NCBI GenBank assembly: GCA_947626515.1
Contig: CANQSL010000011.1
Coordinates: 1-32,565, forward strand
Reading direction: 5' to 3'
DNA: 32,565 bases
Source of the DNA: an uncultured Bacilli bacterium
GTDB taxonomy: Bacteria; Bacillota_I; Bacilli_A; RF39; UBA660
Below the pieces are notes generated by a model, which did not search any database, was not told where the DNA came from, and saw only the letters and a program-made list of their open reading frames with translations. Each line of letters starts with the position of its first letter. Within the stretch, counting starts at the first letter, position 1. Shown here piece by piece: positions 6,926 to 14,107 of this stretch. The position numbers and the translations under genes are program-made.

Positions 6926-8442
6926 ATGGCTGGAATAATACATATTAAAAATAAAGAGAGCAAGACTTTTTTGAAAGAATGCGATTATTTAATAGAACCT
7001 AGTGAATCTCCTATTTATTATTCAATTTCTATTTATACTCTATTAAATGAAAAATTTAATTCATTATATTCAAACAAACATTTAGATGAATTTAAAGATA
7101 GTATTAAATTTTATAAAGATGCATTAGATGAATTTGAAGAAGACAGTAAATATATTAATAAAATTTATACTGTTTTAGATAATTATAAAAATAAAGAAAT
7201 GGATTTAATAAAAAATGCAGAATATATTTCTTTAGATTTCAACATAAAAGAAATAGAAGAATATATAAAATATAATCCAGAAATTTTGTGTAAAAAATTT
7301 ATTTTTTATTTAGATGAAATTGATATTTCATATTTAATTAGATTAAAAGAAATATTTAAAAATACAAATAATTTATATTTTATGATAAAAGGAAATACTG
7401 CACTTATAAATTATAATGACTGTTTAAATACATTCAAATATATTGAAGATATAGCATTGGATTCAAAAAAATACAATTTTTCTCCTTTGGAACAAATAAT
7501 GTATATTTATGATAATATTAGAGATAGAATTTATAAATTGGAAAATGAGGATGAAGATAAAAATATTTCAAGAGATTTATCAAAAGTTATTTTAGGAAAT
7601 AAAATTGTATGCCAAGGTTATGCAAATATTTTTGATGCAGTATTACGAATTTTAAAGTTTAATACACAAATAGTATATCTTTTTAATGAAAAATTGGGAC
7701 ATGCACGAAATATGGTACAAATTATAGATAAAAAATATAATATTAACGGAGTTTATTATTTTGACACAACTTGGGATAGCAAAAAAATGAAAATGACATT
7801 GAATTTCTTTTATCATACAAATATTTTGCTCTAACAAAGTTGGAATTTGAAAAATATAATAAAAAATATATAGATAAAAGATTTAAATGTTTTAATGATA
7901 AATTTGCAGATGAATTTATTGACAATTTGAATAAGAACGGAATAACGAATATCGATTCAAATGTTATACACTCAATTAATTATATGTCTGAATTTTTATG
8001 TAGCGAATGTTTGATTAATCCTATATTTGTTAATAATAATCCTAAAATGTTTACTTTGAAAGAATTATTATTAAAAGATTTTGACTCTAAAAAGACAATA
8101 AAAAAAGTTAAAAAAATGGCAAAATACTTTAATAGTCCTATACCAACAGAAATATTATTAAAAGCATTAGTGAATGTTAGAAAAATACAATATTATAAAT
8201 ATCCACAAAAATATTTATTTGATATAGATACTCTTTGCGAAATTGCAAATAAATCAAAATGGGATCCTTTAGACATATTTGAATTATTTTTTTCATATTT
8301 TAAAAGTTATTCAAATTATAATACTGCTTTAAAAAGTCAAATAAAAAATTATTTAGAAAATAATAATATAGAAAAAGAAATAGAATTGGTAAAACTTACT
8401 AAAACATTGAGAAATATTTATGATAAAAAGAATACAGAATAG
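6926..8442 (+). pseudogene. Transglutaminase-like protein, reading frame interrupted at A7 (7781-7787); ORFs 6926-7834 and 7840-8442 are two halves of one protein
   Basis: Transglutaminase-like Cys/His/Asp blocks GNKIVCQGYANIFDAVLRIL ... GHARNMVQII ... YYFDTTWDS; a -1 shift at the A7 run continues as KKNENDIEFLLSYKYFALTKLEFEKYNKKYIDKRF into the second ORF, which lacks its own ATG and RBS. Confidence 0.75.
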
Positions 8443-8452
8443 TATTCTTTTT
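8425..8452. terminator. Bidirectional terminator AAAAAGAATAC-AGAATA-GTATTCTTTTT
   Basis: Inverted repeat between convergent genes, overlapping both gene ends. Confidence 0.8.
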
Positions 8453-9995
8453 AATATATATCATTTTGTATAGTTATTTTTTTATCTTCACTTTGTTCAT
8501 TTATGATTAAGCTATTTGTAGTTAAAAGCATCCCAGCAATAGAACATGCGTTAGCTAAAGAGTTAATTAAAACATCGGCAGGATCTAATATTTTTGTTTC
8601 ATTATTATTTTCAAATAAATCTGTATTTATGTTATATATTTTAGAACAATTAGAATTTTCAATTTCTTTTAATATATTTAAATTTAACCCCGCATTATAT
8701 AATATTTGTTTAATAGGATATTTTAATGCTTCTTTAAATATTTCATCGCCATTATTATTTATCATCATATCAGTACTAATTTTATAAAATATTAACCCAC
8801 TTCCTGGAACTATTCCATTTTCTAAGGAAGAAATAGAACACAATGCATCATCATATCTCATTTTTAATTCTCTTCTCTCAATATCTGTAATTGCACCTAC
8901 ACTAATATAGGCTATTCCATTTTCTAACATTGCTATCCTTTTATCTAAAAATTCAAGTTCATATTTTTCACATACATCTTTTCTTTGGTCTTTTAAGGCT
9001 TTTAATCGATTAGATATAGATTTATTTTTACCAATGAAAGTAGAACTGTTGTTATCTATTTTAATTTCATTACATATACCCATATTAGATATTTTAATAT
9101 CACTTATATTATCTACTATTTTACTATTAGTTATGAATGATATATCATTTAAAGCGTCAATTTTATTTTTACCAAATTCTGGATTTTTTAATAATATAAT
9201 ATTTAATTTATTATTTATATATAACGATAAAATATTATTTACAAATTCATCACTATAATCTTCAGCTAATATTACTAAACTAGAATTTAGTTTAACTATT
9301 TCATTTATAATATTAGCTATGTCATCTATATTTAAAAGTTCTATATTTGTTGTTAATACATAAGCATTATTTAATGTTATTTCTTTTTCTAAAAGAAAAT
9401 AAGGAGATGCTAAATTCGTATCTATACTATAACCAACTTTATAAATAACTCTTGTTTCTTTTGTATTATTTTCTATTATTTTAATTGCATTTACATTTTT
9501 TACATGCTTATATGCTTCCATAATTTTATTTCCAATATATTTAGAATTAGAAGAAATACTTGCAATATCTTTTATATCTTTTAATTTGCATTTTCTACTA
9601 CATTTTTTTATTTCACTTATTATATTATTAACTGATAGATCCAATTCTTGTTTTAGTATGATTGGATTAACCCCATTATCTATCTTCTTTAATCCTAGCG
9701 TATATATAGCTTGAAGCAATACTAGTGTAGTTGTCGTCCCATCACCTACAATATCATTAGTTTTTATAGATGCTTCTTTTACCAAAGTTAATATAGTGTT
9801 TATACATTCGTCTTCACTTTCTATATTAGAAGCTATAGTCACTCCATCATTTGTTATAAAAGGACTAAATGAAAAATGATCAATGATTGCATTACTTCCC
9901 TTTGGACCTAAAGTAGCTTTTACGGTATTACACATAATATCCACTGCTTCTTTTATTTTATTTTTTAATTCATTTCCACTCACAATTATTTTCAT
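8451..9995 (-). CDS. Divergent GroEL-like (group I) chaperonin
   Basis: ATLGPKGSNAI, NDGVTIA, VGDGTTTTLVL, YDDALCSISSLENGIVPGSG and DPADVLINSLANACSIAGMLLTT correspond to GroEL ATPase blocks; 514 aa. Confidence 0.9.
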   Translation of the reverse strand: MKIIVSGNELKNKIKEAVDIMCNTVKATLGPKGSNAIIDHFSFSPFITNDGVTIASNIESEDECINTILTLVKEASIKTNDIVGDGTTTTLVLLQAIYTLGLKKIDNGVNPIILKQELDLSVNNIISEIKKCSRKCKLKDIKDIASISSNSKYIGNKIMEAYKHVKNVNAIKIIENNTKETRVIYKVGYSIDTNLASPYFLLEKEITLNNAYVLTTNIELLNIDDIANIINEIVKLNSSLVILAEDYSDEFVNNILSLYINNKLNIILLKNPEFGKNKIDALNDISFITNSKIVDNISDIKISNMGICNEIKIDNNSSTFIGKNKSISNRLKALKDQRKDVCEKYELEFLDKRIAMLENGIAYISVGAITDIERRELKMRYDDALCSISSLENGIVPGSGLIFYKISTDMMINNNGDEIFKEALKYPIKQILYNAGLNLNILKEIENSNCSKIYNINTDLFENNNETKILDPADVLINSLANACSIAGMLLTTNSLIINEQSEDKKITIQNDIY

Positions 9996-10744
9996 ACTTT
10001 ATCACTCATTTCTATAATATATTTCCAATATCTTTTAGGCATAAAACTCATCCTACATCTATCATTTTTTCTAGCTTGTATCCCAATAGTATTGTAAAAC
10101 AATTTCCACATAGATTCTATATTAGTCTCTTCATCACTTAATTCATTCGTAATTAATTTAAATTCTCTTCCACTGACTAAATAAAACATTTTTTTATCAT
10201 AAATACTTAATATATTTCTACCAACATCTTTAATTATCCAATATTCATTTTTTAATCTTTTAGAAAAATGCCTAGATAATTTAAATAAGATATCATTTAC
10301 AGGTTCTATTTCGGCGTATAGTATTTTATTTTTCATTTCTTTAAATCGAACAAATCCTTTGTATTTATGATTTTCACTTGTAACATATTTAGATATTTTA
10401 ATTGATTCACTTACACATTTTAAATTTCTCATATAAATAACTTTATCTTTATATTTTAAAGCACTTTTAAAAAAATAATAAATAATTAATTCTTTTTTTT
10501 CATTATTAGAAATATATACGTTATACATAATATTAAATATATTATTTCCAAATTTTTTTACCAAACTATCTATAATGTTTTTATCTTCTATATTAAGTAA
10601 TATTGTCTGATCAAATAAATTAGCTTGATATTTAGTATCTTTTATATCATATGGAATTATTTTTTTGCTTAATAATATTATTATCAAATTTAGTAAACTT
10701 ATAAAACTATCGTTATATAAATATATATAGTTTTCTTTTCTCAT
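9992..10744 (-). CDS. DUF4130 / TIGR03915-type probable DNA metabolism protein
   Basis: ENHKYKGFVRFKEMKNKILYAEIEPVNDILFKLSRHFSKRL ... ARKNDRCRMSFMPKRYWKYIIEM matches the family pattern; next to the TIGR03916-type radical SAM gene. Confidence 0.85.
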   Translation of the reverse strand: MRKENYIYLYNDSFISLLNLIIILLSKKIIPYDIKDTKYQANLFDQTILLNIEDKNIIDSLVKKFGNNIFNIMYNVYISNNEKKELIIYYFFKSALKYKDKVIYMRNLKCVSESIKISKYVTSENHKYKGFVRFKEMKNKILYAEIEPVNDILFKLSRHFSKRLKNEYWIIKDVGRNILSIYDKKMFYLVSGREFKLITNELSDEETNIESMWKLFYNTIGIQARKNDRCRMSFMPKRYWKYIIEMSDKV

Positions 10745-11952
10745 TAAAATAATGTCAATTGTTCCTTATTGTTTAATTTTATTTCTTCATCTAATAATAC
10801 TAAATTTTTTTCAATAAAATTTGACTTAAAATAACTAATATCCATAAAATATTCTCCATTACATAATATAAAATATTTAGCTCTTTTTAAAACTACTCCC
10901 ATTTTTTTTAAATCATTAAAAGTAATTTTAAAATATCTTCTCGAATTAATTATTCTTTTTGCTGATTTAACTCCAATACCTGGTACTTTAAGTAAATCAT
11001 AATACGAAACTTTATTTACTTCTTTAGGGAACTCGTCTATATGATTTAACGCATAATTTGCTTTTGGATCTATTAATAGATTAAAATTTGGATTTTTTTC
11101 ATCTAATAAATCTTCTACTTTGAAATTATAAAATCTTAAAAGAAAATCTGCTTGATATAATCTATTTTCTCTAATTAGTGGAGGAATTTTTATACTCGGC
11201 AAGAGTTTATCTTTATTTACTGGTATATAAGCAGAATAAAATACTCTCTTTAAATTAAATTTATCGTACATATATTTACTTTTTTTAATAATATCAAAAT
11301 CAGTTTCATTTGTTGCACCTATTATCATTTGAGTACTTTGTCCTGCAGGAACAAACTTTCTCGATTTGTTTTCCTTTACATAGCCCATTATCTTGTTTAC
11401 TTTATTAATGTTTTTATTTGGAGCTAAAAGTCTTAACCCTTTTTCAGTTGGAAGTTCAATATTTGCACTCATTCGGTCAACTAATAATCCTAATTTTTTT
11501 ATTAATACCTCACTAGCACCAGGTATTGCTTTTGCATGTATATACCCTCCAAATTTATATTTCTTTCTTAAAAGTGAAATAGTTTCTATCATTAAATTCA
11601 TTGTATAATCTGGACTTTTTATAATTCCTGAACTTAAAAATAATCCCTCTATATAGTTTCTTCTATAAAAATTCATTGTTATAGTACATATTTCTTCTGG
11701 TGTGAATATCGCCCTTTTTACATTATTCGTTTTCCTATTTATACAATATTTGCAATCAAATATGCAACAATTTGTTAAAAGAATTTTTAAAAGAGATATA
11801 CATCTTCCATCACTAGAAAAAGAATGACAAATACCACTTATACTAGTATTTCCTATACCGTTAAAACTATTTCTATTTGATCCACTAGAAGAACATGAAG
11901 CATCGTATTTTGCACTATCAGATAAAATAGTTAATTTTTCTTTTAGTTCCAT
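10744..11952 (-). CDS. Putative DNA modification/repair radical SAM protein (TIGR03916-type)
   Basis: KLTILSDSAKYDASCSSSG, CIFDCKYC (CX3CX2C), SGIIKSPDYTMNLM, helix-hairpin-helix LLKVPGIGVKSAKRIINSRR. Confidence 0.9.
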   Translation of the reverse strand: MELKEKLTILSDSAKYDASCSSSGSNRNSFNGIGNTSISGICHSFSSDGRCISLLKILLTNCCIFDCKYCINRKTNNVKRAIFTPEEICTITMNFYRRNYIEGLFLSSGIIKSPDYTMNLMIETISLLRKKYKFGGYIHAKAIPGASEVLIKKLGLLVDRMSANIELPTEKGLRLLAPNKNINKVNKIMGYVKENKSRKFVPAGQSTQMIIGATNETDFDIIKKSKYMYDKFNLKRVFYSAYIPVNKDKLLPSIKIPPLIRENRLYQADFLLRFYNFKVEDLLDEKNPNFNLLIDPKANYALNHIDEFPKEVNKVSYYDLLKVPGIGVKSAKRIINSRRYFKITFNDLKKMGVVLKRAKYFILCNGEYFMDISYFKSNFIEKNLVLLDEEIKLNNKEQLTLF

Positions 11953-13738: not shown

Positions 13739-14107
13739 ATGTTTGATGCTTTTTCTATAGATTTAATGTTAGGTGGCTTTGACTCACTTTTTAAAACTTT
13801 ACTATCTTTTATAATTATTGATTACATAACATTAATATTAAGGTCTTTTTATAGCAAAAATATAAATACTAAGTTAAGTATTAAAAGTATTATTAAAAAA
13901 TTTGGTTATATAATAATAATATTTTTAGCAGTACAATTAGATAAAATATTTGAAAGTAGTATAAATATTAGAAATATAATAATATTTGTATTTATATCTA
14001 ATGAAGGCTTAGCTATTATAGAAAATTGGTCAAAAATGGGAATAAAAATACCCAAAATATTAAAAAATAAATTAGATGAAATAAATAAATCTAATGATGA
14101 AAAATAA
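13739..14107 (+). CDS. Phage holin family protein (TIGR01593 / Phage_holin_4-like)
   Basis: 122 aa; DSLFKTLLSFIIIDYITLILRSF ... NIIIFVFISNEGLAIIENWSKMGIKIPKILKNKLDEI is characteristic. Confidence 0.8.
   Translation: MFDAFSIDLMLGGFDSLFKTLLSFIIIDYITLILRSFYSKNINTKLSIKSIIKKFGYIIIIFLAVQLDKIFESSINIRNIIIFVFISNEGLAIIENWSKMGIKIPKILKNKLDEINKSNDEK

Follow-up and report, generated by a model that had tools for sequence, protein, structure and literature searches.

A GroES-less chaperonin co-inherited with a radical SAM-DUF4130 gene pair in a family of gut Bacilli

Introduction

GroE is described as near-universal in bacteria, with most Mollicutes excepted. What, then, is a GroEL-like gene doing at the end of a compact operon that begins with a radical SAM gene and a DUF4130 gene, in an uncultured Bacilli bacterium of the order RF39? 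The window, by which we mean the whole stretch of DNA that was analysed, comprises 32,565 nucleotides of contig CANQSL010000011.1 (assembly GCA_947626515.1). An earlier note, made from this DNA alone, had read the three genes as a translationally coupled unit with a paralogous-looking GroEL and no GroES. The papers on RF39 that we consulted make no mention of GroEL, and in the literature searched no paper names TIGR03916 or TIGR03915 and no characterised member of either was found; DUF4130 is mentioned once, as a predicted mutagenesis-related enzyme.

Results

The radical SAM, DUF4130 and GroEL-like genes form one tight co-directional unit (8451-11952), with open reading frames exactly as the earlier note had given them. 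The features of the locus are as follows.

10744..11952, minus strand: radical SAM protein, TIGR03916 (rSAM_link_UDG), 402 aa, from profile matches
9992..10744, minus strand: TIGR03915/DUF4130 protein (PF13566), 250 aa, from profile matches
8451..9995, minus strand: divergent GroES-less group I chaperonin, the genome's sole Cpn60, 514 aa
11968..11996, minus strand: promoter-like TTTACA-N17-TATAAT, 11/12 match, ~15 nt upstream of the radical SAM ATG
8422..8452, minus strand: terminator-like, A+T-rich 12-bp hairpin with a U run, from folding energy

The radical SAM stop and the DUF4130 start share one base (TAATG at 10744), and the DUF4130 stop overlaps the chaperonin start as ATGA (9992-9995); both junctions had been described previously. 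The terminator claimed for the far end of the unit is also real: the hairpin at 8422-8452, positioned between the chaperonin and a convergent ORF (7840-8442), has a folding energy of -12.6 kcal/mol (z = -6.4). Its stem is poor in G-C pairs, which is why a G+C-based terminator scan overlooked it. The claim of a promoter stands in part. The site (11996-11968) is present with its 11/12 match; across the region, however, promoter-like sites occur at chance level (63 found versus 65.9 in shuffled sequence). No CIRCE heat-shock operator was found within the window. Elsewhere in the window, a holin-like gene (TIGR01593 / PF05105) stands alone at 13739-14107; no lysin was recognised beside it.

The radical SAM protein matches TIGR03916 along its full length (608 bits against a cut-off of 343.5; profile positions 1-414 of 415). 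It carries a CX3CX2C cluster motif at residues 63-70, whose C63, C67 and C70 are invariant in 18 sequences, and a C-terminal helix-hairpin-helix-like stretch at residues ~312-339. The product of the DUF4130 gene, which directly adjoins the TIGR03916 gene in the operon, scores 198.5 bits against TIGR03915 (cut-off 112.25) and 145.7 bits against PF13566. Its AF2 model is confident (pLDDT 93) and has no significant match among solved folds; the best, to DHH phosphoesterases (E 1.5e-3, TM 0.31), is too weak to assign a function. The weak top matches were repeatedly to DHH phosphoesterases, namely PAP phosphatase, RecJ and family II PPase. Residues E124, R133, H159, R163, D173 and R225 are invariant in DUF4130, a pattern that suggests a catalytic or phosphate-binding site. 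The radical SAM protein is probably a DNA-modifying or DNA-repairing enzyme with a helix-hairpin-helix-like tail, and DUF4130 its partner.

We examined 193 genomes of the order, which form one family of 84 genera; most are metagenome-assembled genomes (MAGs) ~89-99% complete, and some negatives may be assembly gaps. PF00118 (Cpn60) was present in 44 of the 193, with no Cpn60 found in the other 149. Every one of the 44 Cpn60-positive genomes also carries TIGR03916, and 148 genomes have neither (44/44 versus 0/148; Fisher p ~2e-44, phylogeny ignored). TIGR03916 was found, full-length or split, in these same 44 genomes and in one more (G170), where a 5.6-kb contig ends within the radical SAM gene. 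In all 42 loci with the radical SAM and chaperonin genes on one contig, the order was radical SAM-DUF4130-chaperonin on one strand, with overlaps or with gaps of at most 35 nt; taking the longest ORF, spacing ran from -41 to +15 nt at the first junction and from -67 to +35 nt at the second. The earlier note had proposed counting how often a chaperonin of this clade stands third beside the pair: it does so in 42 of 42 loci, across 15 genera, a spread that rules out an adjacency private to the source genome or its immediate relatives. A second genome collection gave the same picture, with all three genes in 21/21 family loci, some of them from the same genomes (MAGs labelled uncultured Bacilli, Tenericutes or Erysipelotrichaceae, and one Clostridiales). 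Across the class (395 genomes searched), this family alone yielded TIGR03916. Flanking genes differ between loci and are common to close relatives at most, and a search for a fourth conserved cassette gene found none: the recurrent flank clusters occur at a handful of loci or consist of antisense ORFs. We regard the linkage of the chaperonin with the pair as close to certain. At one locus (G040, L052 6066-7615) the chaperonin is split into two ORFs and a near-identical copy in G056 is intact; the split is an assembly error or a fresh frameshift.

The source genome (1.37 Mb, 95.6% complete) has a single Cpn60, the cassette chaperonin itself. GroES (PF00166) was not found in it by a model that was positive in 11 of 14 controls, and 0 of the 193 genomes of the order exceeded the cut-off. 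The absence of GroES is thereby confirmed, and of the earlier reading the coupled unit and the constant third-place chaperonin stand with it. What does not survive is the description of the GroEL as paralogous-looking, with a normal GroE implied alongside: as the only Cpn60 in a genome without detected GroES, the chaperonin is no paralogue of a housekeeping GroEL.

The pair itself is not confined to this family. At 59 outside loci (Clostridia, Bacteroidota and others), DUF4130 lies beside TIGR03916 in 57, and none has a chaperonin within ~6 kb, ruling out the chaperonin linkage beyond the family. All 20 of the outside pair-bearing genomes tested carry Cpn60 elsewhere. The gene trees, which contain eight outside sequences, set the radical SAM and DUF4130 proteins of the family clearly apart from these (support 86 and 93).

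The chaperonin scores 159 bits against PF00118 (Cpn60) and 337.5 bits against the GroEL equivalog TIGR02348, so far under the cut-off of 582.1 that we class it as a divergent group I chaperonin. Its AF2 model is a confident, full three-domain GroEL fold (pLDDT 90), which Foldseek matches to GroEL at E ~1e-43. By sequence it scores 243 bits against E. coli GroEL and 79 bits against the phage EL chaperonin (6tmt). We compared 41 cassette chaperonins with 29 ordinary GroELs, using E. coli residue numbers from a sequence whose correctness was judged only by how well it aligned. The ATPase-site residues D52, D87 and D398, together with D495, are invariant in 41/41 cassette chaperonins, and T30-P33, the GDGTTT loop and hinge glycine 192 are also retained. 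Residues of the GroES/peptide groove (Y199, L234, V264, E238, N265 and R268) are replaced, often consistently: E238 has become N in 39/41, and N265 is hydrophobic in nearly all. Y199, L234, V264 and E238, as well as R197 and E386, are replaced in most or all of the 41. The inter-subunit salt bridges R197-E386 and E409-R501 are lost, as is the GGM tail. Identity in the apical domain is 32% within the cassette clade versus 58% in ordinary GroEL, and in the N-terminal equatorial part 58% versus 65%. A dN/dS of 0.09-0.26, similar to that of DUF4130 and ~3 times that of the radical SAM gene, marks the chaperonin as constrained by purifying selection yet faster-evolving than the enzyme.

Such remodelling would also be expected if the GroEL-derived ring were no folding machine at all but had become a structural or enzymatic component, powered by ATP, of a radical SAM-DUF4130 complex, for example a scaffold presenting DNA or gathering enzyme copies. 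The consistent rewriting of the apical groove, the loss of the folding-cycle salt bridges and GGM tail, and the fact that the chaperonin was never seen without the pair are in keeping with this idea. We nonetheless judge it unlikely, because all ATPase residues, the hinge glycine and the full three-domain fold have been kept, and because the pair exists elsewhere without a chaperonin, so that its chemistry needs no essential structural role.

The cassette chaperonins form one clade (support 100/100) on a long branch, which joins the tree next to the GroEL of f5, a reduced family of the class. Native descent is plausible from this placement; long-branch attraction is also possible. At four f5 loci (L196 5490-5732; L197 5881-6132; L199 5626-5865; L200 7559-7810, minus strand) a GroES-like mini-ORF of ~80 aa lies directly upstream of a GGM-less GroEL, and at L198 this ORF is missing and GroEL comes after tsaD. 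The f5 loci look like stepwise GroES erosion.

Mapped onto an RpoB tree of 116 genomes, the cassette falls in three separate regions, and its distribution needs 14 changes, 12 of them forced by well-supported branches. Within genus g18, the cassette of genome G052 sits at a native site (ZnuA-like ... RecD2-like), and the same site is empty in G177, G179 and G035, in each case on a single contig, which rules out assembly gaps as the sole cause of negatives in this genus; some within-genus absences in other single genomes could be MAG gaps. The cassette that G035 does have lies elsewhere in its genome, and each of the three genes in it clusters with genus g58. All three gene trees likewise share the same conflict with the species tree for G101, for G118/G092 and for two g53 genomes. 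Partial Mantel correlations given RpoB were 0.735 for chaperonin-radical SAM and 0.765 for chaperonin-DUF4130 (p = 0.001), compared with a correlation with RpoB of only 0.44. These shared conflicts and empty sites show that the cassette moves as a unit, its three genes being inherited, lost and transferred together. Because no partial cassette was found over such divergence, we infer that selection, and not operon compactness alone, keeps it whole. One bin (G086) holds two rpoB genes, on contigs C13 and C14 (L229, L306), and may therefore be contaminated.

It might still be argued that the chaperonin is a general one, left over from the GroEL once native to the family and hitchhiking in a compact operon. 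It is, after all, the only Cpn60 in the genome, its clade adjoins f5 GroEL so that native descent is possible, and the genes of an operon move and vanish jointly anyway. We think this improbable: 149 of the 193 relatives get by with no Cpn60 that could be found, the chaperonin was never retained upon loss of the pair through at least 12 joint changes, and the fast evolution of its apical domain is unlike that of a generalist.

Patchy distribution, variable flanks, intergenus transfer and empty sites would likewise suit a mobile defence or selfish cassette, whose chaperonin would support an effector that modifies DNA and acts against phage or plasmids, but this is very improbable given that PADLOC models match none of the three proteins, that no conserved integrase or repair island lies beside the cassette, and that a search for a mobile-element carrier found none. 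In that search, two viral-contig matches showed neither DUF4130 nor the chaperonin and the plasmid matches were below 60% identity, which speaks against carriage on phage or plasmid.

Discussion

We consider it probable that the locus is a transferable repair-type cassette that brings its own GroES-independent, client-dedicated chaperonin. The stricter statement, that a cellular group I chaperonin working without GroES has turned into an obligate subunit of a DNA-repair-type enzyme cassette, is transferred with it and serves that one client, we hold to be evenly balanced between true and false. We infer a folding role for the chaperonin, and we propose a lid-less hold-and-release model because the ATPase is kept, the GroES surface is lost, GroES is absent and the linkage is obligate. 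The remodelled apical surface of the chaperonin rings would capture DUF4130, radical SAM protein or both in their non-native state and keep them from aggregating. Coupled translation would deliver these clients beside the rings, and ATP cycling without a GroES lid would release them, as in the phage EL chaperonin. Elsewhere, the pair could rely on the host's GroEL/GroES. With GroE gone in this family, the pair would have come with, or kept, a chaperonin of its own; the pair would persist only with that chaperonin, which would be useless without the pair.

Which of the two proteins would be the client? Radical SAM enzymes have a partial barrel related to the TIM barrel. TIM-barrel proteins feature strongly among the obligate clients of GroE (PMC10068320). 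Branch-rate covariation was higher between chaperonin and DUF4130 (partial r 0.72) than between chaperonin and radical SAM (0.29), with an interval on the difference of 0.003 to 0.909. DUF4130, rather than the Fe-S radical SAM protein, is slightly favoured. Four points weigh against a folding dependence: genes in compact operons get lost and transferred jointly even without one, the pair outside the family does without a chaperonin next to it, the relatives that lack GroE presumably fold other radical SAM enzymes, and the DUF4130-chaperonin covariation is only marginally above the radical SAM-chaperonin value.

Comparison with known systems helps to place the cassette. The TIGR03916/TIGR03915 pair of Clostridia, Bacteroidota and Proteobacteria is like it in both protein families, their order and their adjacency, but differs in having no chaperonin within ~6 kb and, in the hosts tested, an ordinary GroEL elsewhere. 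With GroEL/Hsp60, the cassette chaperonin has in common the full-length three-domain fold and D52, D87 and D398; it differs in that its genome has no detected GroES, in its lost groove residues, salt bridges and GGM tail, in its sub-cut-off TIGR02348 score, in its restriction to 44/193 genomes and in its fixed operon partner.

The phage EL chaperonin is GroES-independent, has lost R197-E386 and, without encapsulating its substrates, prevents their aggregation through ATP cycling (PMC7185714). Like the phage EL, OBP and AR9 chaperonins (PDB 6tmt; PMC7185714, PMC9598537), the cassette chaperonin keeps the ATP site, does not conserve R197-E386, has a divergent apical domain and is predicted to be GroES-independent. 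Unlike it, these chaperonins are phage-encoded and have no link to the radical SAM pair, and the sequence match to 6tmt is weak. Close sequence kinship to the EL type was not found (79 versus 243 bits for E. coli GroEL).

For the gbu enzyme cluster, three strains have a GroEL-like gene close by, and the cluster needs native GroES/GroEL-like proteins to function at 37 °C (PMC10653785). The proximity of chaperonin and enzyme genes resembles the cassette, but the gbu-linked protein was tested with a GroES-like partner, ordinary GroE is expected in those genomes, and three strains contrast with co-inheritance across a family. In the Mollicutes, a related Bacilli lineage, GroE is mostly absent (PMC5810989, PMC13245659). 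In that lineage GroEL and GroES form a general system and persist or disappear jointly, whereas the family studied here has only a GroES-less, cassette-bound GroEL.

We are thus presented with a family of gut Bacilli in which the majority are chaperonin-less and the remainder keep a chaperonin solely inside a three-gene cassette. If the chaperonin is indeed a natural one-client machine, its service to a single client is directly testable, and the cassette points to a hard-to-fold step in the uncharacterised TIGR03915/16 pathway. A search of GroE-less genomes for gene pairs reliant on a private chaperonin could uncover further hidden GroE clients.

Other unusual chaperonin loci came to light in the same analysis. 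Very divergent, shortened Cpn60-like proteins occur in two other families of the class (L191 6688-8136, 482 aa; L193 2599-3810, 403 aa), encoded just downstream of tsaE-tsaB-rimI-tsaD-like genes, with further genes between in L191. A divergent Cpn60 of 516 aa (L189 6350-7900) lies amid apparent phage or mobile-element genes. At two further loci (L194 5578-7569; L195 5978-8079), GroEL and a short GroES-like ORF stand amid phage-like structural genes, and these chaperonins are apparently prophage-borne.
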